IMG/VR virus record: IMGVR_UViG_3300001851_000150
Location: 1-20,207 of that record
DNA from: a virus
Reading direction: 5' to 3' (one strand)
DNA: 20,207 nucleotides
In this document: piece after piece, positions 1 to 10,912 of the stretch
Layout of the letters: the number at the start of each line of letters is the position of its first letter
How positions within the stretch are numbered: position 1 is the stretch's first letter
Notes under the pieces: model-generated
What the model was told of the DNA's origin: nothing
What the model saw: only the letters and a program-made list of their open reading frames with translations
Databases searched by the model: none
Made by a program: the position numbers and the translations under genes

Positions 1-273
1 GGCGACGGCTACGGCTCCGGCTTCGGCTACGGCGTTGGCCGCTACGGCTACAGCTACAGCGACGGCTATGGCGACGGCTATGGCGACGGCGACGGCGACG
101 GCTCCGGCCTCGGCTACGGCTTCGGCACCGACGACGGCTCCGACGACGGCTCCGACGACGGCTCCGGCCTCGGCCTCGGCCTCGGCTATGGCGACGGCTA
201 TGGCGACGGCTCAGGCTACGGCCTCGGCTATGGCGACGGCTATGGCGACGGCTCAGGCTACGGCAAGAAATAG
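1..273 (+). CDS. Gly/Asp/Tyr/Ser-rich repeat protein, C-terminal part (5' truncated)
   Basis: The frame starting at base 1 is open to a TAG at 271-273 and encodes 90 residues in which nearly every second residue is glycine (G-D, G-Y, G-S, G-F, G-L dipeptides), ending in SGYGKK. The gene begins before the window. No catalytic motif is visible; low-complexity Gly-rich tails of this kind are usually flexible and their function here is unknown. A second frame (starting ATG 35) is also open through the repeat and runs without a stop into the next gene as an Ala/Thr-rich stretch. I prefer the glycine frame because it ends just before a well-formed downstream start and looks like known Gly-rich repeat proteins. 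Frame choice is an inference. Confidence 0.55.
   Translation, partial: GDGYGSGFGYGVGRYGYSYSDGYGDGYGDGDGDGSGLGYGFGTDDGSDDGSDDGSGLGLGLGYGDGYGDGSGYGLGYGDGYGDGSGYGKK
181..264 (+). repeat. Two exact tandem copies of a 42-bp unit
   Basis: Bases 181-222 and 223-264 are identical. They lie in a longer tract (1-264) built from GGC-NNN hexamers, which also holds three consecutive copies of a 12-bp unit (gacgacggctcc) near 130-165. The unit length is a multiple of 3, so copy-number change keeps the glycine frame. Slippage or recombination is the likely origin. Confidence 0.9.
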
Positions 274-289
274 AGGCGGCACACACACC

Positions 290-604
290 ATGTTCAACTT
301 GGATTGGGAAATTGAGCTCCAGTTCGCAGGCAAGGTGATCGACGGCGCGTGTTTGTCGGGCAGATGCGAGGTGCTCGGCAACGGCGACATCACCGACATC
401 TCGCTGAATGCAACCAAGGGGCCACGCGGCTTTGACATCGCCACATCGGTCGACGCTCTGGACCTCGGCGGCCCGGATTTCGAACGCACACTCGCGGCTC
501 AGATCAAAGCCGACTACGCGCACGTGATCGCGGAGAAGTTCGAGGAATTCTACTCGCACATTCCGGCCACCCGATCCGATCGAAAGCTCAAGGAGGCGGT
601 CTAA
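290..604 (+). CDS. Hypothetical protein, 104 aa
   Basis: The product begins MFNLDWEIELQFAGKV and ends RKLKEAV. I chose ATG 290 because it lies 16 bases after the stop of the Gly-rich frame, is preceded by GAGG at 273-276, and begins sequence of normal complexity; the upstream in-frame ATG 35 would add an 85-residue Ala/Thr repeat. The N-terminal half looks like alternating beta strands and the C-terminal third (from about residue 64) is a charged amphipathic helix. I do not recognise the family. Its position upstream of the recombination genes makes it an early phage gene. Confidence 0.6.
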   Translation: MFNLDWEIELQFAGKVIDGACLSGRCEVLGNGDITDISLNATKGPRGFDIATSVDALDLGGPDFERTLAAQIKADYAHVIAEKFEEFYSHIPATRSDRKLKEAV

Positions 605-610
605 CCCAAC

Positions 611-671
611 ACCATCCCGGAGGGCTGGGATGGTCAGCGGAGCGGGTCGAGCGGGGTAAGGCCCGCTCCGC
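611..671 (+). other. Two consecutive stem-loops in the intergenic gap
   Basis: Stem 1 pairs 611-618 (accatccc) with 627-634 over an 8-base loop. Stem 2 pairs 637-646 (gcggagcggg) with 662-671 over a 15-base loop. All pairs are perfect Watson-Crick. No T-run follows either stem, so a simple intrinsic terminator is not indicated. They could be a Rho-dependent or attenuating structure, a processing site, or an operator. Confidence 0.6.
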
Positions 672-701
672 AATCTCTCATCACGTCAGCGAGTAGGCAC
701 C

Positions 702-968
702 ATGCAAACACAGTCAGTCATCACGACAGCCGAGTGGATCGACAACAATTGGGACGAAGCGCACGCGGCGCTGATGCGCCTTCGGGAATTTGAAACTCTG
801 GAGCGCATGCACGAAGGCACGCGCCGAACGCTTCAACTCGCCTTGCGGATGCTGATCGCAGCATCCGAACGCGACGCCAGAATAAAGCCATCAGAGGAGC
901 GAGTGCCGCGCAAGTTCGGCGCTAGTCCGCGCACGTTCCGAACGGCAGGAAAGATGCGGAGGCCTTGA
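702..968 (+). CDS. Hypothetical protein, 88 aa
   Basis: Encodes a mostly helical, Arg-rich small protein starting MQTQSVITTAEWIDNNWDEA. No signal peptide, membrane segment or metal-binding motif is visible. The central part (about residues 20-55) is a run of amphipathic helices rich in Leu, Arg and Glu. The C-terminal 25 residues are basic and probably disordered. It is followed 4 bases later by a small membrane-protein gene. I do not recognise the family. Confidence 0.55.
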   Translation: MQTQSVITTAEWIDNNWDEAHAALMRLREFETLERMHEGTRRTLQLALRMLIAASERDARIKPSEERVPRKFGASPRTFRTAGKMRRP

Positions 969-972
969 CGCC

Positions 973-1089
973 ATGGATGAGCAGCAACTCGACGACTTTG
1001 CCGAAGCGGTCAAATCGATCTCATTCGGCGACGTGGTTGTCTCGATCATTGCGGCATCGCTGATCGCGGCCGGAATAATCCTGTTTTGA
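973..1089 (+). CDS. Small single-pass membrane protein, 38 aa
   Basis: Too short for most gene callers. ATG 973 starts MDEQQLDDFAEAVKSISFGD followed by an uninterrupted hydrophobic stretch VVVSIIAASLIAAGIILF that ends at the TGA (1087-1089). An acidic N-terminal helix followed by about 18 hydrophobic residues at the extreme C-terminus suggests a tail-anchored inner-membrane peptide. The gene begins 4 bases after the previous stop, consistent with translational coupling. Function unknown; small phage membrane proteins are often host-interference or exclusion factors, but nothing here proves that. Confidence 0.5.
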   Translation: MDEQQLDDFAEAVKSISFGDVVVSIIAASLIAAGIILF

Positions 1090-1199
1090 AACAACGAGTT
1101 TGCAGGCGGAGGGAGGGGTCGTTCCGGTCGGACGGCTAGGGTGTCAACCTTCCTCGGGCGATGTGAACCGGCACTCTGCAATTCAAAAGGACGCGGCAC

Positions 1200-2096
1200 A
1201 TGGAACAGGCGGCAAATGTCTCTCATCCACAAATTCATCGAGCGAACGGCGACGGCAGCGGCGTTGTGCCTGCTGGCAGCGGCGTGCTTCATTATGGGGG
1301 TGATACTGGCGGTAATGCTGTACGCGCTCCCAATGGGGGCGCGGTTGCTCGGCATGTAGCGCGGCTGCCGGGACAGGCAGCGAGCGAAGCCGCAGCGCTT
1401 ATCTCGATGATCGAGCGCGCCGCCGCTGACCCTGGCATCGACATCGAGCGCATTGAACGAATGTTCGCGATGTATGAGAGGGCATCGGCGCGGAATGCGA
1501 GGGCGGCGTATGATGCCGCATTCGCAGCGATGCAGCCGGAGCTGCCTGAGATCGACAAGCGCGGAAAAATCATCATCAAGGAAAAGGGCACCGAGAGGAT
1601 TATTCAAAGCACGCCCTATGCGTTGTGGGACGATACGAACCGGCTTATCAAGCCGATCTTGGCCAAGTACGGGTTTGGGATCTCGTTCCGCATCGCGCAA
1701 ACAGAGTCGCGTCTGACAACGACAGCCATCCTTGCGCACTGTGACGGCCATCGTGAAGAGACGCCTTTTTCGTCTCCGATCGATTCCACCGGATCGAAAA
1801 ACAACGTGCAGGGATGGGGATCGGCGCTTAGCTACGGCAAGCGCTACGCAGGCACCGCGATCCTCAACATCACGACCAAGGGTGAGGACGACGACGGGAA
1901 AGCCGCCGGGCAGGCGCTTGCCGAGTTCATCAGCGATGAGCAAGTCGCCGAGCTTCAGAAGCTCATCGCCGAGACGAAAACCGACATCACCAAGTTTCTC
2001 GAGTTCTGCAACTTCGAAAGCCTGTCGGATATCCCAGCGGCGCAATTCGCGAAGGCTCGCTCGATGCTCCTCGCAAAGAAGGGGAAGCGCTCGTGA
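1200..2096 (+). CDS. erf: ERF-family single-strand annealing protein (phage recombinase)
   Basis: ERF-type annealing proteins bind single-stranded DNA ends and anneal homologous strands during phage recombination. The ERF core is visible from about residue 63: SMIERAAADPGIDIERIERM, then the helical segment YERASARNARAAYDAAFAAM, then YALWDDTNRLIKPIL (140-154), and the family's signature-like QGWGSALSYGKRYA (204-217). The C-terminal third is an acidic linker and a helical domain, as usual. ATG 1200 is supported by an AAGGA about 8 bases upstream. Residues 1-62 are Gly/Ala-rich, unlike a folded domain, and overlap another frame (1216-1359), so the true start could be later (ATG 1407), which however has no Shine-Dalgarno. 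The gene overlaps the start of the exonuclease gene by 4 bases, forming a Red-like pair. Confidence 0.88.
   Translation: MEQAANVSHPQIHRANGDGSGVVPAGSGVLHYGGDTGGNAVRAPNGGAVARHVARLPGQAASEAAALISMIERAAADPGIDIERIERMFAMYERASARNARAAYDAAFAAMQPELPEIDKRGKIIIKEKGTERIIQSTPYALWDDTNRLIKPILAKYGFGISFRIAQTESRLTTTAILAHCDGHREETPFSSPIDSTGSKNNVQGWGSALSYGKRYAGTAILNITTKGEDDDGKAAGQALAEFISDEQVAELQKLIAETKTDITKFLEFCNFESLSDIPAAQFAKARSMLLAKKGKRS
1216..1359 (+). CDS. Candidate overprinted membrane peptide inside erf, 47 aa
   Basis: In the +1 frame relative to erf, ATG 1216 opens 47 codons ending at TAG 1357-1359. The peptide is MSLIHKFIERTATAAALCLL followed by AAACFIMGVILAVMLYALPM and a short GARLLGM tail. That gives one positively charged amphipathic start and a strong membrane segment of about 25 residues, the layout of a real small membrane protein. 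The erf frame here is low-complexity. The upstream GGCGG is only a weak ribosome site. A GTG at 1141 would lengthen the frame. Either the two genes truly overlap, or erf begins later. The existence of this gene is an inference. Confidence 0.35.
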   Translation: MSLIHKFIERTATAAALCLLAAACFIMGVILAVMLYALPMGARLLGM

Positions 2097-2731
2097 AGGT
2101 CATCGATTGCGAGCAGGGCTCACCTGAATGGCATGCAGCCCGTGCCGGCCGCGTGACCTCCAGCCGCGTGGCCGACGTAGTACGCCAGACGAAGAACGGC
2201 CCATCAGCGATGCGCGAGACATATAAGGGCGAGTTGATCGCAGAGCGCCTATCCGGGTTCGTTGCAACCGACGGATACGTCTCGACGGCCATGCAGCGCG
2301 GGATCGAGACCGAGGACAAGGCCCGCGCCTATTACGGGTTCATCAACGACGTGCAGCCTGAGCGCGTCGGGTTCGTGCTGCATCCGACGATCGAAATGGC
2401 CGGGTGCTCGCCTGATCGCCTCGTGCTCGATGACGGTCTGATCGAGATCAAATGTCCGCATTCCAAGGAGCACATTCGCATGCTCAAGGGCGGCGCGATC
2501 GAAGCCGATTATGCCAAGCAAATCCAGTGGCAACTTGCCTGCACCGGCCGCGCGTGGTGCGACTTTATCAGCTACGATGACAGACTCCCCCCCGAGATGT
2601 GCATCAAGGTCATTCGCGTGCACCGCGACGTTGAAACGATAACGGCGTTGGAGTTGGCCGTCAGGCTGTTTCTTGCCGAGATCGAGAAAGAGGTCGCCGA
2701 ACTTCGCAGCATGTTCAAGGTCGCCGCATGA
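2093..2731 (+). CDS. YqaJ / lambda-exonuclease-like DNA nuclease
   Basis: A PD-(D/E)XK-fold exonuclease that would resect double-stranded DNA ends to give the single strands bound by the ERF partner. Visible motifs in order: GSPEWHAARAGRVTSS (residues 9-24), GIETED (70-75), the acidic motif CSPDRL with D108, the catalytic E-x-K as LIEIKCP (E118, K120), and QIQWQLACTG (143-152), the helix with conserved Gln that closes the active site. Length (212 aa) fits the family. It starts at GTG 2093, overlapping the erf stop, so the two are translationally coupled. Confidence 0.9.
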   Translation: MKVIDCEQGSPEWHAARAGRVTSSRVADVVRQTKNGPSAMRETYKGELIAERLSGFVATDGYVSTAMQRGIETEDKARAYYGFINDVQPERVGFVLHPTIEMAGCSPDRLVLDDGLIEIKCPHSKEHIRMLKGGAIEADYAKQIQWQLACTGRAWCDFISYDDRLPPEMCIKVIRVHRDVETITALELAVRLFLAEIEKEVAELRSMFKVAA

Positions 2732-2772
2732 GCCTCCCCAAGATCATGCGCGCCGTGAGCAAAACAGGGTGA
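2728..2772 (+). CDS. 14-residue mini-ORF, possibly a gene remnant
   Basis: ATG 2728 overlaps the exonuclease stop (ATGA) and reads MSLPKIMRAVSKTG before TGA 2770-2772. It begins like a normal coupled gene but ends at once. It may be the 5' stub of a gene lost by deletion, or simply a coupling peptide for the next gene. No function can be assigned. Confidence 0.2.
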   Translation: MSLPKIMRAVSKTG

Positions 2773-2776
2773 AACC

Positions 2777-2947
2777 ATGAAAAATATCTGGTGGGCGCTG
2801 GCTAATTTTATTGCGGTGATGACGTTGTTTATCGCCGCGAGATACGTATTTGGATCGTCATTCAACGCTGATCTGTATGGGGCGGGACTGGTTCTCGGTT
2901 ACGTTTACGCGAAGCTGCACGAGATTGCTGCCGAGAGGTTTTGGTGA
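2777..2947 (+). CDS. Small membrane protein, 56 aa
   Basis: ATG 2777 to TGA 2945-2947. Starts MKNIWWALANFIAVMTLFIA, a hydrophobic segment at residues 4-24, followed by a second, weaker one around ADLYGAGLVLGYVYA (31-45), and a short charged tail ending AAERFW. This looks like a two-helix or one-helix inner-membrane peptide. The stop overlaps the next ATG (TGATG), so it belongs to the early operon. It has visibly more A+T than its neighbours (aaaaatatctgg, gctaattttattgcg), hinting at separate origin. Function unknown. Confidence 0.55.
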   Translation: MKNIWWALANFIAVMTLFIAARYVFGSSFNADLYGAGLVLGYVYAKLHEIAAERFW

Positions 2948-3165
2948 TGCATGACATTGGCAAAGCCGGGCCGGTTCATCCAGGCACCTGCAAAGAGTGC
3001 CCCTTTTTTAAATCGATGGGTGAATCCTACGGGGAATGTCGATCAATTACGGTTCCTGATAAATCGAAGCCGTGGGCTGCCGTGGAGAACGAGCGTTTCA
3101 GCCGGATGCTCCCGAGCGACTGGACCGGCTGCACGCACTGGAAAGCCAACGTGAGGGCAGCATGA
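2947..3165 (+). CDS. Small Cys-rich protein, likely metal-binding, 72 aa
   Basis: Starts MHDIGKAGPVHPGTCKECPF. The CxxC at residues 15-18, a third Cys in GECRS (31) and a fourth in TGCTHW near residue 63 form a possible four-Cys zinc site of the kind frequent in small phage early proteins. ATG 2947 overlaps the previous stop, and the gene's own stop overlaps the next ATG (ATGA). No enzyme motif is visible; the role is unknown. Confidence 0.6.
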   Translation: MHDIGKAGPVHPGTCKECPFFKSMGESYGECRSITVPDKSKPWAAVENERFSRMLPSDWTGCTHWKANVRAA

Positions 3166-3416
3166 CCAACAAACCCATAGACCTTGCGACCTCTCAGGCA
3201 GAGCCGCAGAAACGAGCATGTTCGGAGTGCAGGCATATCTATCGCGCAAAGATCAGTAGCGATGCCGTGTGCGGCGCGACCGGCAGAGACCTTATTTTTG
3301 AGCGAATGAGCGATGTTGCGGCCTGTGGAAGGCGAGGCCACCTCTGGCAGCCCCGTCCTCCCCGCCTCGGGTTCTTCGCCTGGCTTCGCGTCCTGTTCTT
3401 CGGAGAGAGGAAATGA
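3162..3416 (+). CDS. Small Cys-rich protein with hydrophobic C-terminus, 84 aa
   Basis: Starts MTNKPIDLATSQAEPQKRAC. A CSECRHIY motif (Cys 20 and 23) plus Cys in DAVCGATG and VAACGRRG give four cysteines in a zinc-ribbon-like spacing, echoing the gene just upstream. The end, PRLGFFAWLRVLFFGERK, is aromatic and hydrophobic and could associate with the membrane. ATG 3162 is chosen because it overlaps the preceding stop (ATGA) as do its neighbours. Two adjacent Cys-rich genes of similar size suggest ancient duplication or similar function; the function is unknown. Confidence 0.6.
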   Translation: MTNKPIDLATSQAEPQKRACSECRHIYRAKISSDAVCGATGRDLIFERMSDVAACGRRGHLWQPRPPRLGFFAWLRVLFFGERK

Positions 3417-3544
3417 ACCGTCAGATGGGCGACTGCGCCATGAACACGCTCGGTCTCGTCTCACACCTTGCGAAGACGATGCGCGACAAATGGGGGATGG
3501 AGCACGAAGGCGGCAAGGATTTCGATCCTGAGCGATCGAATTGA
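3413..3544 (+). CDS. Hypothetical protein, 43 aa
   Basis: ATG 3413 overlaps the previous stop (ATGA) and has AGAGAGG just upstream. Reads MNRQMGDCAMNTLGLVSHLA then a charged tail ending DFDPERSN, with TGA at 3542-3544. Helical N-terminal half; no motif recognised. Support comes from coupling and the ribosome site. Confidence 0.45.
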   Translation: MNRQMGDCAMNTLGLVSHLAKTMRDKWGMEHEGGKDFDPERSN

Positions 3545-3571
3545 CCCCTGGACCAGGTCGATGAGGGACGC

Positions 3572-3805
3572 ATGAGCAATAAATGGAGACCGCTGTCGAC
3601 GACGGATGAAAAGGAAATCGTCGATCGAGTGGTTCTGCTGTTCTGCCCGCACCGGGACGTGACGAACCGAAAACGTATCGAAATCGGATGGGCGCACACA
3701 AGCCTTGGGGGCCACCACGCATGGGCAACGCATTGGATGGAGCTTCCGGGCGACCCCGATCCAGATGAAGTGGCTCGCATTCTTGCAAATGAAGTTCCAG
3801 CATGA
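3572..3805 (+). CDS. DUF551-like small phage protein, 77 aa
   Basis: The order W-x-P-L near the start, a VVLLFCP strand (20-26), IEIGWAHTS, and the ending ATHWMELPGDPDPDE match the layout of the small DUF551-type phage proteins (W-x-P, V-L-L, then H-W-M-x-LP-x-P). The biochemical role of that family is not known. The tail EVARILANEVPA is helical. Its stop overlaps the excisionase-like start (ATGA). Family assignment is from pattern recall only. Confidence 0.65.
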   Translation: MSNKWRPLSTTDEKEIVDRVVLLFCPHRDVTNRKRIEIGWAHTSLGGHHAWATHWMELPGDPDPDEVARILANEVPA

Positions 3806-4176
3806 CCGCCCCCATCCTGACCCTCGAAGAGGGAGCGGCACCGGAAGACTTCGGCCTTCCTGCCCGTCCCATCTGCACAGCACAAGAGGTCGCAACCGCC
3901 TTTCGGTGTTCCGCGACCAAGGTTCGCCGTGCCATCAATGACGGGTCTCTCCCCGCCTTCCGACTCGGCCGGGAACTCAGGATCAAGACGGCGGATGCGG
4001 CGGCATGGCTCAAAGCAAGCTCTACAGCGTCGGGAAGTACAGCCTCGGTCGGCTCAAAGGACGATGGGTCGTCACGTGGCGAGAAGGCCGAACACGACGG
4101 CGCTACGATCTCCACGCTTCCACCCAGGAAGAGGCGAAACGGGCTCTTGAGCGCTTCGCTCGCGGCCAAGCCGTAG
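3802..4176 (+). CDS. Excisionase-like HTH (MerR/HTH_17 type) DNA-binding protein
   Basis: Residues 24-71 form a winged-helix DNA-binding domain: PICTAQEVATAFRCSATKV then RRAINDGSLPAFRLGREL and DAAAWLKAS. This is the HTH_17 pattern seen in excisionases and recombination directionality factors. Such proteins bend DNA near attP and bias integrase toward excision. The position immediately before and overlapping the integrase supports that role. The C-terminal 50 residues, after the folded domain, are Ser/Gly/Lys-rich and are encoded in a different frame from the first 57 codons of int (4005-4176). The tail may be unstructured by-product of that overlap. Confidence 0.75.
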   Translation: MTAPILTLEEGAAPEDFGLPARPICTAQEVATAFRCSATKVRRAINDGSLPAFRLGRELRIKTADAAAWLKASSTASGSTASVGSKDDGSSRGEKAEHDGATISTLPPRKRRNGLLSASLAAKP

Positions 4177-5045
4177 TCCAGGCCGGCCCCGCCACCACCG
4201 TGCAAGCCGTTTGGGACGCTTACATCGCCGATCGCGAGCTTGAGGGGCGCAAGTCCGTCCCCATCCTTAAATTCAACTGGCGGGCGCTCAGAACAACGTT
4301 CGCGGGCCTATCCGCCAGCAAAGTCACGAAGCAACTCTGCCGGGACTATGCCGATGCCCGCCGGGCCGCCGGGATTGCGGAAGCCACCATCCTCACCGAG
4401 CTTCGCCGGCTGCGAACCGCCCTGATCTGGGGCGCGGCAAACAAGATGATCCCGGAAGCCCCGCAAGTCTGGCTGCCGGTCGAGCCCCGCGCCCGCGAGC
4501 GCTGGCTGACCGAAGACGAGGTTCGCAGCCTGATCGACGCCGCAGTGTCCCCGCACCTTCGCCTTTTCATCATCCTCGCCCTGGCCACCGCCGGCCGCAA
4601 AGAGGCGATCCTTGGCCTGACCTGGGCCCGCGTCGATTTGGACCGCCGGCTGATCTATCTCGACGACCCGACGCTCGACCGGACCTCTAAGGGCCGCGCC
4701 ACCGTCCCCATCAACGACATGGCCCTTGCCGCCCTGACATCGGCCAAGGGCGCAAGTCTTACACCCTACGTCATCGAGTACGCGCAAGGTCGGGTCGCCA
4801 GCATCAAGACCGCATGGGCGGCAACACTCTCCCGCGCCGGCATCGAGCACGCGACCCCGCACGATCTGCGGCGCACCGCGGCAAGCTGGATGGTGATGGC
4901 CGGGACGCCGATCGAGCAGGTCGCCCGCTATCTCGGCCACAGCAGCCCAAGAACGACGTGGAAGGTCTACGGCAAGTTCGCGCCGGATTACCTGCGAACG
5001 GCATCTGAGGCCGTGAGCCTCGATTTACGAAGAAGGATAGGGTGA
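4005..5045 (+). CDS. int: Tyrosine recombinase (phage integrase)
   Basis: Catalyses site-specific recombination between phage and host attachment sites. All catalytic residues can be placed: Arg198 in TAGRKEAILGL, Lys229 in SKGRATVPI, His286 and Arg289 in TPHDLRRTAASW, His312 in LGHSS, and the nucleophile Tyr322 in WKVYGKF. An N-terminal arm-binding-like region (KGRWVVTWREGRTRRRYDL, residues 18-36) and a core-binding domain (about 66-150) precede the catalytic domain. Length 346 aa is normal. ATG 4005 lies inside the excisionase-like gene with a 172-bp overlap, as in lambda-type xis/int arrangements. Its 3' end is duplicated at 5397-5447. Confidence 0.95.
   Translation: MAQSKLYSVGKYSLGRLKGRWVVTWREGRTRRRYDLHASTQEEAKRALERFARGQAVVQAGPATTVQAVWDAYIADRELEGRKSVPILKFNWRALRTTFAGLSASKVTKQLCRDYADARRAAGIAEATILTELRRLRTALIWGAANKMIPEAPQVWLPVEPRARERWLTEDEVRSLIDAAVSPHLRLFIILALATAGRKEAILGLTWARVDLDRRLIYLDDPTLDRTSKGRATVPINDMALAALTSAKGASLTPYVIEYAQGRVASIKTAWAATLSRAGIEHATPHDLRRTAASWMVMAGTPIEQVARYLGHSSPRTTWKVYGKFAPDYLRTASEAVSLDLRRRIG
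4995..5045 (+). repeat. Direct repeat, copy 1 (integrase 3' end)
   Basis: Encodes RTASEAVSLDLRRRIG plus stop. A diverged second copy lies exactly 402 bp downstream at 5397-5447. Bases 5006-5024 are identical to 5408-5426 (19 nt). Confidence 0.9.
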
Positions 5046-5407
5046 TGGCCAACTCGACTATTACCAACGACATTCTGTGCAAATTAGCGCACGTGAGCTT
5101 CCATGAAGTCTGGAAGGTCGCGCCAAGACCGAAAAAGCCGACGCATTGGGTCGATGTCGAATTGTCAGGCGCCGACGCGGCCATGCCGCTAGAGGAATTG
5201 TCAAAGAAGTACCTCAGACCGGCCATGACGACGCTGGCAAATCAGCTGTTCGACGTGCGCGGCGACGCTTATTTCTACCCGGTAAAAGTACCTCTAGGGG
5301 TGAGGGGAGCTTGCATCCGGTTTGGCGACACGCACATGTTGGTTTACGAGGTGCAATCACTCGACGATTTCAAGAGGACGTTTCGGTTTGCGGTGGCGTA
5401 CTGCTGA
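5045..5407 (+). CDS. Hypothetical protein, 120 aa, inserted behind int
   Basis: ATG 5045 overlaps the integrase stop (TGATG); GTG 5042 is also possible. The product begins MANSTITNDILCKLAHVSFH. It looks like an alpha/beta fold with strands WVDVELSG, DAYFYPVKVPL, ACIRFG and MLVYEVQ, and ends DDFKRTFRFAVAYC. No family is recognised. Its last codons (VAYC) are read from DNA that, in another frame, begins the duplicated integrase tail, so its 3' end sits exactly on the repeat junction. That makes it likely cargo carried by an insertion or recombination event behind int. Function unknown. Confidence 0.65.
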   Translation: MANSTITNDILCKLAHVSFHEVWKVAPRPKKPTHWVDVELSGADAAMPLEELSKKYLRPAMTTLANQLFDVRGDAYFYPVKVPLGVRGACIRFGDTHMLVYEVQSLDDFKRTFRFAVAYC

Positions 5408-5447
5408 TGAGGCCGTGAGCCTCGATCTGAGGAGGAAAGTGGGATGA
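5397..5447 (+). pseudogene. Remnant of a second integrase C-terminus
   Basis: In the frame starting at 5397 the DNA reads RTADEAVSLDLRRKVG and a stop, against RTASEAVSLDLRRRIG and a stop for the integrase at 4995-5045. Thirteen of sixteen residues match, and synonymous third-position changes show that the copies diverged as coding sequence. Homology stops just upstream of the first Arg codon. No start or catalytic domain is attached, so this is a 3' fragment of a related but not identical integrase gene. Confidence 0.85.
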
Positions 5448-5463
5448 TGACGAGGAAGCGCCT

Positions 5464-5511
5464 ATGACCATCGCAGACGACATCAAGACCAGAAAGGCGA
5501 GGAAGGTATGA
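5464..5511 (+). CDS. 15-residue mini-ORF, possible gene stub
   Basis: ATG 5464 reads MTIADDIKTRKARKV and stops at TGA 5509-5511, overlapping the ATG of the next gene (5508). It may be a coupling peptide or the stub of a lost gene. No function can be given. Confidence 0.2.
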   Translation: MTIADDIKTRKARKV

Positions 5512-6317
5512 GCGAGAGCACTGAAATTGTCGTGGCGGATGGGGACCGCACGTTTTCGCCGTCGACATACAACAAAATGAGGAAGGCCATTGCTGACTGT
5601 GTATCTATAGACGACTGCATGAAGGCGCAGAGCGTCGCGGCGGCAATGGCAACTTACTATCAGCAGGTGAATGACCGAGAGGCCGTACGTCAGTTAGAGG
5701 AAATCAGGCTGCGCGCTTGGAGGCGAATGGCCGAAATCGTGTCTAGAGTCGATGTGTCTAAATGTTCGACACAGAAGGCCATGGCTCAAAAGGTCAGGGA
5801 TGAGCTAGGAGTCGATGCCACATCGATGTTGTCGGATAGCCGCATTATACAGTTGATCAAGCTAGCCGGTGTCCCCGAGCGCAATTTTGAAAAAGAACTA
5901 GCGGCTAGCGGCGCCTCGATTGACGCTATTATCCGAAAGGCGCACCCGAACGCGATACGGGAACGCCAGGAGGCTCAGGACCGGCAACGACAATGGGAGC
6001 AGCAAGCCGAGGAACGCAGCCGAAAGTCTGCGGAGGCTGCAAAAAATGAGGCTGACAAGGAGCAAGTCGAGACGGCCAAGAAGGCCGCCGCCATCCTTGC
6101 AATGGTCAAAGAGAACGCCATCATTGAAGCGCCTGAAGTCGGTTTGACGCTTTCGCCGAAGGTCCGCGACGGGCTCGTCAGCTTTTCTGTCATGATGGAC
6201 AAAAAGATGCATGAGCAACTGCGTGACGCTGCGCACGAGCGGCACACGACAATGTGGGCAATTCTTCGGGAGGCCGCAAACTACTGGTTTGTCGTGAACG
6301 GTTACGAGAAGGTCTGA
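5508..6317 (+). CDS. Coiled-coil protein with possible C-terminal RHH-like segment, 269 aa
   Basis: Starts MSESTEIVVADGDRTFSPST after GAGGAAGG. Three parts are visible. Residues 20-85 are helical, with the run AAAMATYYQQVNDREAVRQL and IRLRAWRRMAEI, a pattern I associate with uncharacterised phage proteins found near ParB-like genes. Residues 145-200 are a long charged coiled coil rich in Gln, Glu, Arg and Ala. The end (215-265) has LTLSPKVRDGL and MDKKMHEQLRDAAHERHTTM followed by a helix, which resembles a ribbon-helix-helix/CopG layout. A DNA-binding regulatory or partition-associated role is possible but not shown. The first 400 bases have more A+T and rarer codons (cta, ata, tct) than flanking phage genes, consistent with separate acquisition. 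Confidence 0.6.
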   Translation: MSESTEIVVADGDRTFSPSTYNKMRKAIADCVSIDDCMKAQSVAAAMATYYQQVNDREAVRQLEEIRLRAWRRMAEIVSRVDVSKCSTQKAMAQKVRDELGVDATSMLSDSRIIQLIKLAGVPERNFEKELAASGASIDAIIRKAHPNAIRERQEAQDRQRQWEQQAEERSRKSAEAAKNEADKEQVETAKKAAAILAMVKENAIIEAPEVGLTLSPKVRDGLVSFSVMMDKKMHEQLRDAAHERHTTMWAILREAANYWFVVNGYEKV

Positions 6318-6319
6318 GC

Positions 6320-6510
6320 ATGAGCCAGCACGCAAAGAACGTGATCGAATTCGTCCCCCTCGCATACCGGATGAAAGAAGCCGTGAAGGTGTCAGGAATC
6401 AGCAAGGCGAAGCTGTACCAAGAGATCGCCGATGGCAAACTGAGATCAGTGAAAAAGGCGGTCGCCGGCTCATTTTACACGATGATCTTGTAGCTTATCT
6501 GAAGTCATGA
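6320..6510 (+). pseudogene. Frameshifted excisionase-like HTH gene
   Basis: ATG 6320 opens MSQHAKNVIEFVPLAYRM, then GISKAKLYQEIADGKLRSVK, a close relative of the leftward gene at 7034-7219. After the Lys-Lys-Ala codons (6452-6460) the frame drifts into AGSFYTMIL and stops at 6491-6493. Shifting by one base at about 6458-6460 restores GRRLILHDDLVAYLKS and a stop at 6508-6510, matching GRRLILRTDLEAYLRAA of the sister gene. One base, most likely a G in the gcgg run, has been lost. A preceding run of five A could allow slippage, but the ideal slippery heptamer is absent, so loss of function (or a sequencing error) is more likely. Confidence 0.85.
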
Positions 6511-6647
6511 CTCGGGAGCAAGTTGGCAAGGTAGTGCTCTCCGGTTCGCAAAACCTCTCGCCGTGCACCGAATCGCGAACCAAGCGCGCACAGCACCCAG
6601 AACATGGCCTATCTGCACCGGAAAAAACCTCATGAATCCAGCAAGCC

Positions 6648-6664
6648 ATACCTTGACATGGTAG
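6648..6664 (+). other. tRNA-Val(GAC) anticodon-arm-like sequence, possible attP core; also a TTGACA element
   Basis: Bases 6650-6662 (accttgacatggt) match 13 of 13 bases of the anticodon arm of canonical bacterial tRNA-Val(GAC) as I recall it from E. coli. They share CTTGACATG with the complete tRNA-Val at 6728-6803. No D-arm or T-arm surrounds it, so it is not a tRNA. Tyrosine integrases often use the anticodon loop as crossover, so this is a candidate attP core. Equally, TTGACA (6653-6658) could be the -35 box of the tRNA promoter, although the -10 (gcggat, 6676-6681) is poor. The rest of the gap 6511-6727 shows no gene. Confidence 0.4.
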
Positions 6665-6727
6665 TGGCCGGGCGCGCGGATTCAGGAGGTTAGGTGGGGT
6701 CACGAGGTTTTCGTAACCTGACAGGAT

Positions 6728-6803
6728 GGGGACGTAGCTCAGTGGTAGAGCACTCGCTTGACATGCGAGGGGTTCGCAGGTTCAATCCCTGCCGTCCCCA
6801 CCA
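6728..6803 (+). tRNA. tRNA-Val (anticodon GAC), CCA encoded
   Basis: Complete cloverleaf of 76 nt: acceptor 6728-6734 (ggggacg) pairs with 6793-6799 (cgtcccc); D stem 6737-6740 with 6748-6751; anticodon stem 6753-6757 (ctcgc) with 6765-6769, loop ttgacat with anticodon GAC at 6760-6762; T stem 6776-6780 (gcagg) with 6788-6792, T loop ttcaatc. The discriminator A is followed by encoded CCA (6801-6803). It lies among phage genes, so it is either phage-borne or the host attachment gene retained at a junction. Confidence 0.95.
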
Positions 6804-6900
6804 TCATTGCGTGTCTTCCCAAGGTCGACCGCGCAAGGTCGTCAGGTAGCGACGATGCGAAGTATTGCGGGTGGTGGAGAGTTTGCTGGATTTTGCATGT

Positions 6901-6917
6901 GGGTCTTTCAGAGACCC
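6901..6917. terminator. Hairpin between convergent tRNA and leftward gene
   Basis: gggtct (6901-6906) pairs perfectly with agaccc (6912-6917) over a 5-base loop. It lies between the rightward tRNA and the leftward HTH gene, where a shared terminator would be expected. No T-run follows on either strand, so termination is an inference. The rest of 6804-7033 shows no convincing gene. Confidence 0.35.
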
Positions 6918-7033
6918 GCCAGCCGGTTGAAAGCATCCGGCGATTACGCTACATCGAAGCGGTCGGTGATTTGGCGATTGCTGACGTGAGTTTCTGCGGC
7001 TCCCGGCTGGTCACCGGCGGGCCGCAACTCGTT

Positions 7034-7219
7034 TCAGGCGGCGCGAAGATAGGCTTCGAGGTCCGTCCGCAGGATCAGCCTGCGGCCAGCTTTCTTGATC
7101 GCCTTGAGGCGACCTGCTGCGATCTCTTCATAGAGCTTCGCCTTGCTGATCCCGGCTGCCTTCGAAGCGTCGGGCATACGGTAGGCGATCGGTGCGGGTT
7201 CCACGGCTTGCGTGTCCAT
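7034..7219 (-). CDS. Excisionase-like HTH_17 DNA-binding protein, 61 aa
   Basis: Leftward gene with a strong ribosome site (GGAGG, 4 bases before ATG 7219). The product reads MDTQAVEPAPIAYRMPDASK, then AAGISKAKLYEEIAAGRLKA and IKKAGRRLILRTDLEAYLRAA. This is a complete small winged-helix domain: helix-turn-helix at about 17-38, wing at GRRLIL (45-50), closing helix DLEAYL. It matches excisionase/AlpA-like factors that control integrase direction or transcription. A frameshifted sister lies in the opposite orientation at 6320-6510. Phased 14-bp direct repeats at 7305-7339 lie upstream and are natural candidates for its binding sites. Confidence 0.85.
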   Translation of the reverse strand: MDTQAVEPAPIAYRMPDASKAAGISKAKLYEEIAAGRLKAIKKAGRRLILRTDLEAYLRAA

Positions 7220-7304
7220 CGTGCCTCCAGTGATTTGGTGGCGAGCGCTGCAAATCAGCGTCGACGGACAACGTTGTGCGCTGGCGGATGACTGTCGGCA
7301 TCCG

Positions 7305-7339
7305 CCAAGATCGGTCAGTCACACACCAAGATCGGTCAG
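7305..7339. repeat. Two 14-bp direct repeats, 21-bp period
   Basis: ccaagatcggtcag occurs at 7305-7318 and 7326-7339 with a 7-bp spacer. The 21-bp period is two helical turns, so bound proteins would sit on the same DNA face. A partial third match (atcggtc) starts at 7386. The repeats lie about 85 bp upstream of the leftward HTH gene, in a 295-bp stretch (7220-7514) where I see no convincing gene. Likely protein-binding sites. Confidence 0.75.
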
Positions 7340-7514
7340 CCCGATGCCTTGCCGATGCCGGCACGTCGAAAAGTGCTCTGGCTGGCATCGGTCGAATGCT
7401 CGCGCTTGAGAACCTCAAGAATTCGTGCCCTATGATTGCTTCGGCGGGTATCGCAAATACCACTGACGCTCATTCTCGCGGACCCACTCTGCGAGGGCTC
7501 GATCCCTGTACCGC

Positions 7515-7733
7515 TCACTTCTCCGTCTCGACGATGAGCGCCGCCAACTCTCTGGGGTCAAACCCCCAGTTGCTATCGTCGTCGTGAAGCGTCATCGCGC
7601 TTTCGTCCAGGGTCATCTTCACGCCGGCTGCGCGGTCGCTTGTCATGAACGTGATGATGAGTCCGGATAGCCGCTCGATGCGATCCAGCTTTAGAGAACA
7701 ACCGCATCGCGGGCGTCGGCAGTCATCGTCCAT
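7515..7733 (-). CDS. Hypothetical protein, 72 aa, downstream of the RHH gene
   Basis: Leftward ATG 7733 is preceded by GAGGAG with an 8-base spacing. The product begins MDDDCRRPRCGCSLKLDRIE with three cysteines in the first 12 residues (5, 10, 12), then a helix RIERLSGLIITFM, a strand-like GVKMTLDESAMTLHDD and a final helix FDPRELAALIVETEK. It begins 38 bases after the stop of the RHH gene and is probably co-transcribed. The pairing recalls toxin-antitoxin or repressor-partner operons, but I see no known toxin motif. Function unknown. Confidence 0.6.
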   Translation of the reverse strand: MDDDCRRPRCGCSLKLDRIERLSGLIITFMTSDRAAGVKMTLDESAMTLHDDDSNWGFDPRELAALIVETEK

Positions 7734-7771
7734 GGCCCGGACTCCTCATTCACTCGTTGCAATTAGTATCT

Positions 7772-7942
7772 CTAGCCACGGCGCTTCTCCTTTGACTCCC
7801 GACCGTCAAGCCAATCTCGCAGAGCGGATTCGATGATTGCCGTTTTAGACGGCGCCGGGTCTTGGCGCGCTCGCCATTCGTCGAGTCGCCGAAGGATCGC
7901 GGGGTCAAGCGCGTAGCTGACCATCTTCTTGTGTCGCGTCAT
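7772..7942 (-). CDS. Ribbon-helix-helix (CopG/Arc-type) transcription regulator, 56 aa
   Basis: Reads MTRHKKMVSYALDPAILRRL then DEWRARQDPAPSKTAIIESA and LRDWLDG plus a basic tail. The RHH pattern is clear: beta strand KMVSYAL (6-12), helix PAILRRLDEWRA, turn with PSKTAII, helix ESALRDWL. RHH proteins dimerise and insert the beta ribbon in the major groove of short inverted or direct repeats. In-frame ATGs exist at 7960, 7948 and 7942. A TATAAT at 7964-7959 overlaps ATG 7960, so translation should start at 7948 or 7942, both without a ribosome site and within about 10 bases of the expected transcript start. That suggests a leaderless mRNA, as for lambda cI from PRM. Confidence 0.8.
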   Translation of the reverse strand: MTRHKKMVSYALDPAILRRLDEWRARQDPAPSKTAIIESALRDWLDGRESKEKRRG

Positions 7943-7958
7943 GTCCATGTGGTGGCAC

Positions 7959-7987
7959 ATTATAGACTTTTACACAAATGTCAACAA
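7959..7987 (-). promoter_or_regulatory. Promoter for the RHH gene
   Basis: On the minus strand: TTGTTG (7987-7982), a 17-base spacer, then a perfect TATAAT (7964-7959). An overlapping TTGACA (7984-7979) would give a 14-base spacer. Expected transcription start is about 7951-7953, directly before the RHH start codons. Confidence 0.65.
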
Positions 7988-8009
7988 GACTCTTGACGCG
8001 ACCGTCAAG
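7980..8009. promoter_or_regulatory. Operator-like array of GTCAA/TTGAC half-sites
   Basis: GTCAA at 7980-7984, TTGAC at 7993-7997 and GTCAA at 8004-8008. The last two form an 18-bp palindrome (7992-8009) with 7-bp arms cttgacg/cgtcaag around cgac. The array overlaps the -35 of the leftward RHH promoter and the possible rightward -35, as expected for an autoregulated divergent switch. Confidence 0.65.
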
Positions 8010-8021
8010 CGGCGATATTTG
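7993..8021 (+). promoter_or_regulatory. Possible rightward promoter
   Basis: TTGACG (7993-7998), 17-base spacer, TATTTG (8016-8021). Good -35, weak -10. It would drive the gene at 8106 and is overlapped by the palindrome at 7992-8009. Confidence 0.35.
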
Positions 8022-8105
8022 CGTTTTCATCGCAGCAGACGAGCAACGCGGCCAGTATTTTGGCTGCATCGATTGGCCCCGCTGATTTGTAGAGGAAGCC
8101 CCTAG

Positions 8106-8327
8106 ATGGAACGCCGAGCATTGGATGGATATTGGTTCGTATGGCATGACGGTATGGACTGGCCGGACAAACTCTACAACAAAGACATGGCGAAGGATCG
8201 GGCGCGTAGGCTGGCATCCGAAACGCTCGGCCGGACCGTGCATGTTTGCCAGCTGCAATCAGTAGGGACGCTGATGATGCCGCACAACCCTAGCGCATCG
8301 GGAGTGATGCGCGAAGACGCGGAGTGA
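8106..8327 (+). CDS. Hypothetical protein, 73 aa
   Basis: ATG 8106 with GAGGAAG about 8 bases upstream. Begins MERRALDGYWFVWHDGMDWP, a Trp/Tyr-rich strand segment, then a basic helix DMAKDRARRLASETL, a strand TVHVCQLQS, and a disordered tail. It could be a small single-domain protein that binds nucleic acid or another protein, but no family is recognised. First rightward gene after the divergent control region. Confidence 0.6.
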   Translation: MERRALDGYWFVWHDGMDWPDKLYNKDMAKDRARRLASETLGRTVHVCQLQSVGTLMMPHNPSASGVMREDAE

Positions 8328-8333
8328 GCCCAG

Positions 8334-8465
8334 ATGTCCGACAGCATGTCTACTGACACACCGTTCGCTTGGTTTTGGTATGACCAGAGCAACGAGCGTT
8401 ACGAATTTTCGCTGCGCCGCGAGGACGCTCCGTCGCACGCATTTCCCGTCTACCGCAAACCTTGA
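8334..8465 (+). CDS. Hypothetical protein, 43 aa
   Basis: ATG 8334 to TGA 8463-8465, reading MSDSMSTDTPFAWFWYDQSN, then ERYEFSLRREDAPSHAFPVY and RKP. The FAWFWYD and YEFSLRRED pattern suggests a short beta hairpin with exposed aromatics. It fills the space between two better supported genes with 6 bases before and 13 after, so it is likely real. Function unknown. Confidence 0.5.
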   Translation: MSDSMSTDTPFAWFWYDQSNERYEFSLRREDAPSHAFPVYRKP

Positions 8466-8478
8466 GAACGAGGCCGCT

Positions 8479-8934
8479 ATGGCGCGAAAATACGAGATCG
8501 ACGCAACGACCGATATCGCCGCTCACATGAGCCAAGTTGCCGACATCGCCCCGATGAGCAAAAACTTCGACATCGTGGACAAGCTCAAGGGCTGGGGCGG
8601 TCGGATCACGGTTCAGCAAGACTTGTTGCAGGATGCGACGGACGAAATCGAATGGCTTCGCACCCACATCCGGGCGCTTATCGAGAACGACCCGAACGAC
8701 GACGCGGCGGATGCCGTCACCGTGCTTGACATTTGGCGCAAGCAGGCACTTGAGCACTTCGGCGAATGGCCCACTCCTGGCGTCGCCGACAACCCCTTCT
8801 TGCGCAACAGGATAGATGAGGCCGTTGCAGCCGAGCGCGAGGCGTGCGCCGTGATTTCCAATCAGGCGGCCGAAAAAATCGGCGAACCAGCAGTCGGGCG
8901 GCTTATTGCGGATGCCATATTGAAGAGGGGATAG
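8479..8934 (+). CDS. Hypothetical helical protein, 151 aa
   Basis: ATG 8479 (MARKYEIDATTDIAAHMSQV) is preferred over the in-frame ATG 8380 because AACGAGG precedes it and the earlier start would overlap the 43-aa gene. The middle, ITVQQDLLQDATDEIEWLRT, then HIRALIENDP, and the end EAVAAEREACAVISNQAAEK are helical and acidic. The last segment resembles the helical 'AEREACA' pattern found in many small phage proteins of unknown role. No catalytic motif. Confidence 0.65.
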   Translation: MARKYEIDATTDIAAHMSQVADIAPMSKNFDIVDKLKGWGGRITVQQDLLQDATDEIEWLRTHIRALIENDPNDDAADAVTVLDIWRKQALEHFGEWPTPGVADNPFLRNRIDEAVAAEREACAVISNQAAEKIGEPAVGRLIADAILKRG

Positions 8935-8964
8935 GTCAGTCTTGTTACTCAAAAGACTCACGCA

Positions 8965-8982
8965 ACCACTAACGCTAGTGGT
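8965..8982. promoter_or_regulatory. Perfect 7-bp-arm hairpin/palindrome
   Basis: accacta (8965-8971) pairs with tagtggt (8976-8982) over acgc. It lies in a 207-base gap (8935-9141) with no convincing gene, directly before a possible promoter. It could be an operator or the terminator of the upstream group; no T-run follows. Confidence 0.5.
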
Positions 8983-8986
8983 CGTA

Positions 8987-9016
8987 TTGACGACACCCAC
9001 CAAATCACCGTATTGC
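8987..9016 (+). promoter_or_regulatory. Possible promoter ahead of the late operon
   Basis: TTGACG (8987-8992) followed after 18 bases by TATTGC (9011-9016). Moderate match only. Its position, after a hairpin and before the run of genes leading to the terminase, is right for a late promoter. Confidence 0.3.
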
Positions 9017-9141
9017 CACATTCGGACGAGCGTCCCGCCTGATTGCGCTGCTGTTTGCGAAGACTGTATGTCAGGACGTTGAGGACGCCCCTGCCCCGAC
9101 CATCCATCGGGAGCCAATTCTAAAGCTATGCCAAAACGCTG

Positions 9142-9342
9142 ATGTTCCGCGACGCCGAGCGCCAAGTCGCGCTCGAATCCGACGACCCGACACCATCCAT
9201 GCAACGTCTCGCCCTCAAGTGCGCAAAGCAGCTGAGGGCCGAACGCATTCAATGTGCGAAGTCAGAATATTACCGCGGATGGCACGCCCGCTATCGCGGC
9301 GCCCTCGACAACTCACCACTCCATGGACCGCATCGGAGGTAG
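9142..9342 (+). CDS. Hypothetical protein, 66 aa
   Basis: ATG 9142 reads MFRDAERQVALESDDPTPSM, then a basic helical segment QRLALKCAKQLRAERIQCAK and SEYYRGWHARYRG. A four-codon frame from ATG 9128 (MPKR) ends in a TGATG overlap with this start, so coupling is possible. Stops at 9340-9342, just before the next gene's start. The family is not recognised; helical and basic, it may bind nucleic acid, but this is a guess. Confidence 0.45.
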   Translation: MFRDAERQVALESDDPTPSMQRLALKCAKQLRAERIQCAKSEYYRGWHARYRGALDNSPLHGPHRR

Positions 9343-9343
9343 C

Positions 9344-10459
9344 ATGACCCCGCAGCCGAAGCGTGAAATCGCCATCGCCGGATGGGTGCGTAAGCGTCTT
9401 TCCGGATACACGCCAATGGGCAAGTTCTGGATCGTCGTCGGCGTGACTTGCATGGTTGTCGATATGGCCATCGGGTTTCTTGCCGGCAGTGCCCAGGCAA
9501 CGTTCTGGCACGGTGTTGGATACGCGACATTGGCAATCGGCTTCGCCTGCCTCCCCGAAGCCGCATACGACGAATTCGAGCAAGGGCGCTGGGTTTCCGC
9601 CGTCGTCGTCGGCCTCCTGTGCATCCCGATCGGTGTCAAAGCCTACGAACAGCAGTTGACCTACTCCGCCGGCATGCGCACGGGCGAGGTGCAGATGACC
9701 CGCGTTCAGAACGCCAAGTATGACGGCGCTCAGGACGGCGTGAAGGAGGCGAAGACCAACCTCGTCATGTGGCAGAAGCAGCTTGCCGACCTGCAATCGC
9801 AGGCCCCGTGGGCAGCGACCGTCAAAGCGGAAGCGCTGCGGGATGAGCGCGCCACGCTCGACAAGCGCATCGCCGACGAGATCGCAGGGAAGCGCGGCCG
9901 AGCCTCAGGCTGCAAGGCCGAGTGCGAGAAGCTGCAGAACGAACGCAAGATCGTAAACGATCGCATCGCCGCTGCGGAGCAGATGGCGGACCTCAAGCAG
10001 CGCATCGACGCGACTGAGCGCGTGATCGCTGCCGCTCGCGAGAAGGCCGACAAGACCGAGCACAAATCGTCGCTCAACCTTTCGGTTGCCGAGACGACGG
10101 CTCAAATCGCCAAGCTGATGTGGGGCGCCAAGCCCGAGGATGCCGTTGCTGCGGACGATATCGCTCTGCGATACGCGACGCTCGGCAGCGCCGGCCTAGG
10201 GTCGCTCGCCCTCCTGATCATGGCGCCTGTTGGGATATTCCTCGGCAATCGCCGTCGAGTGGAAGCCTCCCTCCCCCCCATCGATCCCCGTCCCATGCCG
10301 GCACCCATGCCCCCGAGCGTCCCGCCGAATTCGGCTCTGATGCCCGTGGTCCACCACACGAAGGAATATGTTGTCGACCCTCGACTTGAGAAGTGGCTGC
10401 AGACCCCGGAATACCGCAACCTCTTCCCGGAAGCCCGTAGCCTCAATGGTGCAGCCTAA
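9344..10459 (+). CDS. Polytopic membrane protein with long coiled-coil hairpin, 371 aa
   Basis: ATG 9344 follows a strong GGAGGT. Hydrophobic segments lie at about 28-48, 52-70, 83-98 and 278-301. Between them (about 120-265) is a long charged coiled coil rich in Lys, Glu, Ala and Arg, interrupted at its midpoint by GKRGRASGCKAECEK with Cys190 and Cys194, the expected turn of an antiparallel hairpin. After the last membrane segment comes a basic NRRR, a Pro-rich linker (310-335) and a conserved-looking tail, PRLEKWLQTPEYRNLFPEAR. It sits directly before the terminase genes. Membrane anchoring of a coiled-coil hairpin suggests a role at the envelope, such as exclusion or lysis, but no known family is recognised. 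Confidence 0.75.
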   Translation: MTPQPKREIAIAGWVRKRLSGYTPMGKFWIVVGVTCMVVDMAIGFLAGSAQATFWHGVGYATLAIGFACLPEAAYDEFEQGRWVSAVVVGLLCIPIGVKAYEQQLTYSAGMRTGEVQMTRVQNAKYDGAQDGVKEAKTNLVMWQKQLADLQSQAPWAATVKAEALRDERATLDKRIADEIAGKRGRASGCKAECEKLQNERKIVNDRIAAAEQMADLKQRIDATERVIAAAREKADKTEHKSSLNLSVAETTAQIAKLMWGAKPEDAVAADDIALRYATLGSAGLGSLALLIMAPVGIFLGNRRRVEASLPPIDPRPMPAPMPPSVPPNSALMPVVHHTKEYVVDPRLEKWLQTPEYRNLFPEARSLNGAA

Positions 10460-10468
10460 AGGTCTCAC

Positions 10469-10912
10469 GTGAAGCAAGGGGTAGAATACTCACTAGAGGT
10501 CGCCGAAGAGGTCTGCAAGCGGGTGGCTACTGGTCGCTCGCTCAACTCCGTGTGTGATGACCCTGATATGCCGAGCAAAAACAGCTTCTGGCGATGGGTC
10601 AATGAATACACTTGGCTGCGTGACCGATACGCGCGTGCGCGCGAAGAACGCGCCGAGTTTTTGGCCGAAGAGATCATCGACATTTCGGACACGGAAACGG
10701 ACGCGGCCAAGGCTCGGAACCGGATCGACGCCCGCAAATGGGCCGCTTCGAAGCTCGACCCCAAGCGCTACGGTGACAAGCTCACCCTCGACGGCGATCT
10801 CAACGTGAAGATGCCCGATGACCAGCTTGAATCTCGCATCGCTTTCCTCCTCGGAAAAGCGGGAGTTGCTGTCCCTGCTGGAGGAAAAGGATCGCCGGAA
10901 GAGGCGGCGTAA
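10469..10912 (+). CDS. Terminase small subunit
   Basis: Recognises the phage packaging site and loads the large subunit. Starts at GTG 10469 with AAAGG upstream. Residues 5-50 form an HTH-like DNA-binding domain (SLEVAEEVCKRVATGRSLNS, then SKNSFWRWVNEYTWLRDRYA). The typical central motif of this terminase family follows: REERAEFLAEEIIDISD, then ARNRIDARKWAASKLDPKRY and GDKLTL. Length (147 aa) is normal. The last 95 bases overlap the start of the large-subunit gene. Confidence 0.9.
   Translation: MKQGVEYSLEVAEEVCKRVATGRSLNSVCDDPDMPSKNSFWRWVNEYTWLRDRYARAREERAEFLAEEIIDISDTETDAAKARNRIDARKWAASKLDPKRYGDKLTLDGDLNVKMPDDQLESRIAFLLGKAGVAVPAGGKGSPEEAA

Follow-up and report, generated by a model that had tools for sequence, protein, structure and literature searches.

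The integrase locus and the region up to the tRNA

The window analysed here is an IMG/VR virus record of 20,207 bases. Its genes include an Erf annealing protein, a YqaJ exonuclease, an excisionase-like HTH gene, a tyrosine integrase, a tRNA-Val and the set from terminase to capsid. The nearest named phage is MW202785 (Manatee Spring), with 66% identity in the terminase and 44% in the integrase. On the plus strand, the Erf-type single-strand annealing protein (1200..2096; PF04404, 7.8e-12; phrog_155, 9e-37) is followed by a YqaJ-type exonuclease (2093..2731; PF09588, 3e-24), which is likely the partner of Erf. An HTH_17 excisionase-like gene (3802..4176, plus strand; domain and phrog profile matches) then overlaps the start of int, the tyrosine integrase gene of 346 aa (4005..5045, plus strand; PF00589, 3e-22; phrog_1, 1.7e-56). 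The domain match of int is to the phage integrase family alone (PF00589), and its relatives are found mainly in Alphaproteobacteria.

Two features lie outside the locus. The left end of the window (1-270) is a GC-rich repetitive stretch with several open frames that code for alternating small residues, and the large terminase is found in two frames (10818-11567 and 11708-12358) separated by a gap of about 140 nt, as it is also annotated in MW202785.

Two records from other assemblies, 3300001849_000217 (37.9 kb) and 3300001836_000093 (28 kb), both carry positions 4801-5600 at 100% identity, and no mismatch was present in the compared pieces, whose combined span is window 42-11314. Because the identical sequence is present in two other assemblies, an assembly chimera was rejected and a local assembly error is unlikely.

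In many relatives of the window int, an arm-like inverted repeat and a tRNA end follow within about 100 nt of the integrase gene. In the case of locus L173, int is followed directly after its stop by an arm-like 21-mer and then by a tRNA 3' half with a TTGACAT (GAC) anticodon loop. The window has the same elements in the same order: the identical 21-mer, AGGTAGTGCTCTCCGGTTCGC, at 6529..6549 (plus strand; recognized by its match to L173) and a complete tRNA-Val (GAC) with the same anticodon loop at 6728..6803 (plus strand), which matches Alphaproteobacteria at up to 89%. From the tRNA prediction and the order in L173, the attP of the window is likely this tRNA-Val region, about 1.7 kb downstream of the int tail. 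L173 thus represents the arrangement without cargo, and the window 21-mer and tRNA sit 1.5 kb further from int. Since L173 has the 21-mer and the tRNA half right after int, positions 5046-6528 can be regarded as extra DNA between int and attP.

We infer that these positions form a cargo block, consisting of a 120-aa gene, a second integrase tail, short frames, a gene starting at 5508 and an HTH gene. The 120-aa gene (5045..5407, plus strand; 121 aa if read from a GTG at 5042) begins with an ATG that overlaps the int stop. Its GC content is 0.54 compared to 0.66 for int, and a single-sequence structure model of its product, with a pLDDT of 55, was too weak to read. Further downstream, AGGAGG within the second tail (5430..5435, plus strand) is a possible ribosome-binding site for an ATG at 5447. 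Reading the sequence from there, two very short frames, MTRKRL and MTIADDIKTRKARKV (5447..5511, plus strand), are chained by stop/start overlaps to the 269-aa gene at 5508..6317 (plus strand; phrog_33995, 2e-14), which found no match among named phages. The earlier note had suggested searching for the 120-aa gene elsewhere and for int followed by the 5508 gene in relatives. Within the collections searched, both genes occurred in the window phage only, and for the 120-aa gene no relatives were found in named phages, viral contigs or 85,000 genomes.

The last gene of the block encodes an excisionase-like HTH_17 protein (6320..6493, plus strand; domain and phrog profiles), whose 3' part is seemingly frameshifted relative to a paralogue. 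This paralogue lies at 7034-7219 on the minus strand, so that the two diverged copies face each other across the tRNA-Val. The pair forms an 83-nt inverted repeat of 72%, and the shift in the first copy seems to fall near 6460.

The repeated end of the integrase gene

The top-ranked direct repeat in a search of positions 3500-8500 was found between 4994-5047 and 5396-5449, over 54 nt at 72%. This bears out the original observation of the earlier note that the end of int (4995-5045) recurs, diverged and in coding register, at 5397-5447. The two copies are spaced by 402 nt, i.e. 134 codons, and are in the same frame. Copy 1 (4995..5045, plus strand), located by the repeat search and by alignment with relatives, reads RTASEAVSLDLRRRIG and a stop. 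It represents the native end of int, because relatives align with it through the int C-terminus. Copy 2 (5397..5447, plus strand) is a diverged integrase tail, RTADEAVSLDLRRKVG and a stop, with the rest of the integrase gene absent: no integrase precedes it, and the upstream frame is interrupted by stops. Each tail is closed by TGATG, in which the stop shares one base with the next ATG.

Both tails contain an exact core of 19 nt, TGAGGCCGTGAGCCTCGAT, at 5006..5024 and at 5408..5426 (both plus strand). The core includes GAGGC-cgtga-GCCTC, a 5-bp inverted repeat around a 5-nt spacer. The second core starts one base after the cargo stop codon, which ends at 5407. The claim that the cargo gene ends exactly at the junction therefore holds for the exact match, which begins at 5408; it does not hold for the repeat as a whole, because diverged similarity already begins at about 5396 and the last cargo codons consequently overlap it.

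A search with an 18-mer of the core, allowing up to 3 mismatches, retrieved these two places only, with a chance expectation of 0.01. At the protein level, the tail scored 66 against the downstream sequence and shuffled tails about 27. A chance origin of the repeat is excluded by these two results. The same 18-mer search did not find the core in the attP region of the window, and the idea that the core is a repeated arm site near attP was rejected for this reason.

Comparing the copies codon by codon shows two very different regimes. In the six core codons, 18 of 18 bases are identical. In the remaining ten codons of the tail, every codon differs (10/10) and the residue is nevertheless kept in 7 of the 10. 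These changes outside the core affect 9 of 10 third positions, compared to 6 of 20 first and second positions (Fisher p = 0.005). RTA, LRR..G, the stop and the next ATG are conserved between the tails, so that the homology to int continues in register on both sides of the core. Because all ten non-core codons are changed, nine of them at the third position, with seven residues kept, copy 2 seems to be the end of another integrase that was functional in the past, and not a decayed duplicate. The statement in the earlier note that this is not a fresh tandem duplication agrees with such third-position-biased divergence around an identical core. The pattern is unlike decay within a single genome and resembles two int genes diverging under selection. 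Consequently the unchanged core needs a separate reason, which could be a shared crossover point or a constrained site.

Parallel cases and DNA-level conservation of the tail

Loci encoding relatives of the window int were drawn from bacterial genomes and virus contigs, and in each of them the locus's own int tail was sought downstream. Among 162 distinct int 3' ends, the longest exact downstream match was 6-13 nt, save for four exceptions, namely the window, L148, L134 and L085. The repeat is thus absent from nearly all relatives, and a different small insert precedes the repeated tail in each case. This is not what would be expected from an ancient conserved repeat unrelated to the cargo, which the earlier note had named as the result that would refute its reading.

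In the case of L148, GCCGAGGCGCTGGAGATCG is repeated (19 nt exact, 266 nt apart) behind a 68-aa gene of membrane type. In the case of L134, CGAGGCGCTGGAGATCGA is repeated (18 nt exact, 289 nt apart) behind another small gene. In the protein alignment, the cores of the window, L134 and L148 cover homologous int codons, xEA[VL][SE][LI]D. A single site with recurrent inserts, bounded at both ends by exact repeats of 18-19 nt, is therefore found in these three phages, and the core-to-core inserts are GC-poorer than int in all three (0.54 vs 0.66, 0.45 vs 0.62 and 0.48 vs 0.57). The core of L134 and L148 has no clear dyad. Between the copies of L134 there is no similarity outside the core, and its post-core end also resembles the end of a coupled cargo gene in L123. 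For this reason, the reading of copy 2 as an old int end is weaker for L134. Relatives with a single core are L123, L232 and L263.

The fourth exception, L085, is from an alphaproteobacterial MAG and has a different appearance. Here an identical repeat of at least 120 bp, 1943 bp apart, lies around an AbiE-type gene pair and covers the last 9 int codons, the arm motif and part of a tRNA-like end. Judged by this content, L085 looks like tandem elements at one tRNA. The genes between the identical copies (L085 5290-7360) are an AbiEii-type toxin gene and a DUF6088/AbiEi-like partner.

Searches for further cases gave little. A degenerate AEALEID scan returned two already known int genes only, and no new tail repeat was detected in the 80 nearest relatives of L180 or in 17 bacterial prophage integrases. 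Small genes of DUF551 type, or with a similar W.PI.TAP.D motif, are located behind int in L134, L117 and L180. In L117 and L180 they are coupled directly to the int stop; in Pfam the L134 gene passes and the L117 gene does not.

L134 belongs to a group of five phages, the other four (L123, L148, L232 and L263) having integrases 72-78% identical to that of L134. In these five, codon identity given the same residue was 0.89 over the tail DAAEALEI, compared to 0.47 gene-wide. The sequence right after these tail codons is hypervariable and is then followed by differing cargo. The excess of codon identity in the tail amounts to +0.40 in the L134 clade and lies between -0.17 and +0.07 in other family clusters, with one further cluster, consisting of a single pair, at +0.29. 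Tail DNA conservation as a family-wide trait was therefore rejected, as the other clusters, this single pair excepted, had no excess. The main other peak of the L134 clade, near the int start, is also seen family-wide: in 900 pairs of relatives, the DNA of int codons ~33-41 (window 4100-4130) is conserved. In 159 of 175 relatives the int start is overlapped by an excisionase-like frame, which accounts for this conservation, and the int start was thus rejected as a second anchor. Single-strand predictions gave no stable common RNA fold or hairpin at the cores, and the core as an RNA hairpin was likewise rejected. As the excess in the tail is confined to the L134 clade, apart from the one single-pair cluster, the tail DNA of this clade may either be under constraint or have been kept alike as a crossover point.

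Possible origins of the repeated tail

Two integrase-type tails, an identical core, the foreign composition of the insert, the recurrence in two phages and the clade-level DNA conservation are observed. The explanation that we favour, with moderate confidence, is that a cargo slot exists between int and attP and that the repeated tail is a recombination joint of two related int tails at a short anchor. The first part of the joint would be int with its own end (copy 1) and the coupled 120-aa gene. The joined second part would contribute the last ~16 codons of a related int (copy 2), the short frames, the 5508 gene and the HTH gene. A short part of the int tail in which related phages are alike would have served as the anchor, and phage-driven recombination at short homology would have made the joint. 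This pathway and order of events are inferred from the sequence, and copy 2 may at present serve in ribosome binding and coupling. The earlier note had proposed, as one of its readings, recombination of two related integrase genes that captured a gene, and the coding-type divergence, the GC-poor insert and the two parallels at the same codons all speak for it.

Erf and YqaJ are the candidate proteins for such an exchange, and their genes are present in the window phage, the one phage checked for them. As Erf and an exonuclease recombine diverged DNA well in a lambda assay (PMC3945230), phage recombination proteins are likely agents. In the same work, most of the longest exact stretches measured 41-298 nt and one region had 11 nt; an anchor of 18-19 nt is short beside these stretches, which counts against the proposed joint. 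Neither a donor phage with an int ending in LRRKVG nor an integrase ending in DEAVSLDLRRKVG, for which the earlier note had proposed a search, was found in the named phages, viral contigs and genome loci examined. In addition, if two int genes simply crossed over, the post-cargo junction is explained only by a non-homologous joining or by a donor that already had a second core. The remnant begins within ~15 nt of the core in all three cases, which also counts against a simple crossover.

A possible, if unlikely, alternative is that the core in the int tail is the site of a tyrosine recombinase, either the phage's own or that of a co-infecting phage. Circular units of 266-402 bp, each made of a core and one small gene, would insert there. 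Int would thereby gain new last codons and its old end would be pushed behind the cargo, as in tRNA-targeting islands or in integron cassettes beside intI. Such a site-specific cassette would account for the exact repeats of 18-19 nt that flank inserts of 266, 289 and 402 nt in three phages, always at the same int codons, and for the cargo stop codon that abuts the window core at 5407/5408. The 5-bp inverted repeat with its 5-nt spacer in the window core would suit it as well, but L134 and L148 have no clear dyad in theirs. The core is kept as DNA in the cargo-bearing clade only, the single-pair cluster (+0.29) aside, which again fits. However, the loci examined yielded neither a matched empty/occupied pair nor a circle nor an array with at least three cores. 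It is the tRNA end, not the int tail, that adjoins int in many relatives, and the likely attP lies at the tRNA-Val. Furthermore, the similarity in the window covers the entire tail, the stop and the next ATG, and a bare core would need less. The second reading of the earlier note, a small element that aims at the int 3' end and restores it, is possible too, but no sign of site-specific recombination at the tail was found. Overall, homology-driven exchange is likelier than a site-specific cassette. The wider proposition of a one-gene cassette system in some temperate phages, with a short site at the int end that takes up genes and an int that gets a new C-terminus each time, appears more doubtful still.

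It is less plausible again that core and tail were retained as a cis element of DNA or RNA (regulatory, ribosome-binding or coupling) that is required before downstream genes, with the rearrangements that placed cargo behind int trimmed down to this element. Tail DNA conservation in the L134 clade points in this direction, as do the AGGAGG and the TGATG overlap in copy 2 and the similar ends of the coupled-cargo tails of related phages, e.g. L180. Yet the other family clusters, where they comprise more than one comparable pair, lack the DNA constraint, the window attP region does not contain the core and there is no stable common RNA fold. Because every post-core codon is changed in the window, the cis element would have to be the core alone.

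Tandem elements at one tRNA are an improbable source. Here, two related elements would have been adjacent, the second would have been mostly deleted, and aberrant excision would have carried the remnant into the phage. L085, with its long repeat (at least 120 bp, 1943 bp apart), shows such a state, but the arm motif or tRNA end predicted between int and cargo is absent in the window, L134 and L148. Finally, it is hardly credible that the int tail was simply duplicated in tandem, then drifted and received a gene, or that the repeat arose by chance, even with both copies in one genome, in the same frame and at a short distance, as drift of a dead copy should neither favour third positions (p = 0.005) nor spare 18 mid-tail bases, two further phages have the repeat at the same place, and chance is excluded by the core-match expectation and the shuffled-tail scores.

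The favoured recombination joint has partial counterparts in known systems. Phage mosaic joints and cargo near attP are already known. The mosaic joints that Rad52-like recombinases (Red-beta, Erf, Sak) make in temperate phages, and the morons near int/attP, also have variable foreign genes at a module boundary, a short shared stretch at the junction and a phage-encoded annealing recombinase. Unlike in these, the shared stretch here lies inside the coding end of int, a second copy of it remains behind the cargo, and cases unrelated to one another show it at the same codons. Another counterpart is provided by islands and phages whose integration into a gene 3' end rebuilds that end, as in icd for phage 21 and e14. 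Integrators of this kind, at tRNA or protein genes, also leave a displaced gene end behind the insert, and the target gene keeps working with a slightly different end. Here, in contrast, the target is the phage's own int and the insert is one small gene without a recombinase, and no empty site was seen among the loci examined. Integrons share the one-gene inserts beside a tyrosine recombinase gene and the short repeated site that bounds them, whereas here single-strand predictions gave no common fold at the core, no array was seen among the loci examined, the domain match of int is to the phage integrase family, and the site is within the int coding sequence. In SSV-type archaeal integrases attP lies inside int, so that a recombination-related DNA site is likewise found within the integrase gene, but here the likely attP is at a tRNA outside int. 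No match for duplicated int tails, or for cargo behind int, emerged from the literature searched, nor did a description of a joint that recurs at fixed codons and consists of a duplicated int end.

The ways in which phages acquire small accessory genes mostly have to be reconstructed from junctions that are blurred, and here the scar is still readable. In three phages, repeats of this kind fall on the same int codons and mark a position beside int at which phages take up new genes. The position to examine is exactly defined, directly after the conserved EA..(L/I)D codons of this integrase family, and the anchor sequence can be tested. Should the process prove site-specific, phages would have an equivalent of the cassette capture of integrons; a homology-driven process would be a clear example of gene uptake at a short anchor.
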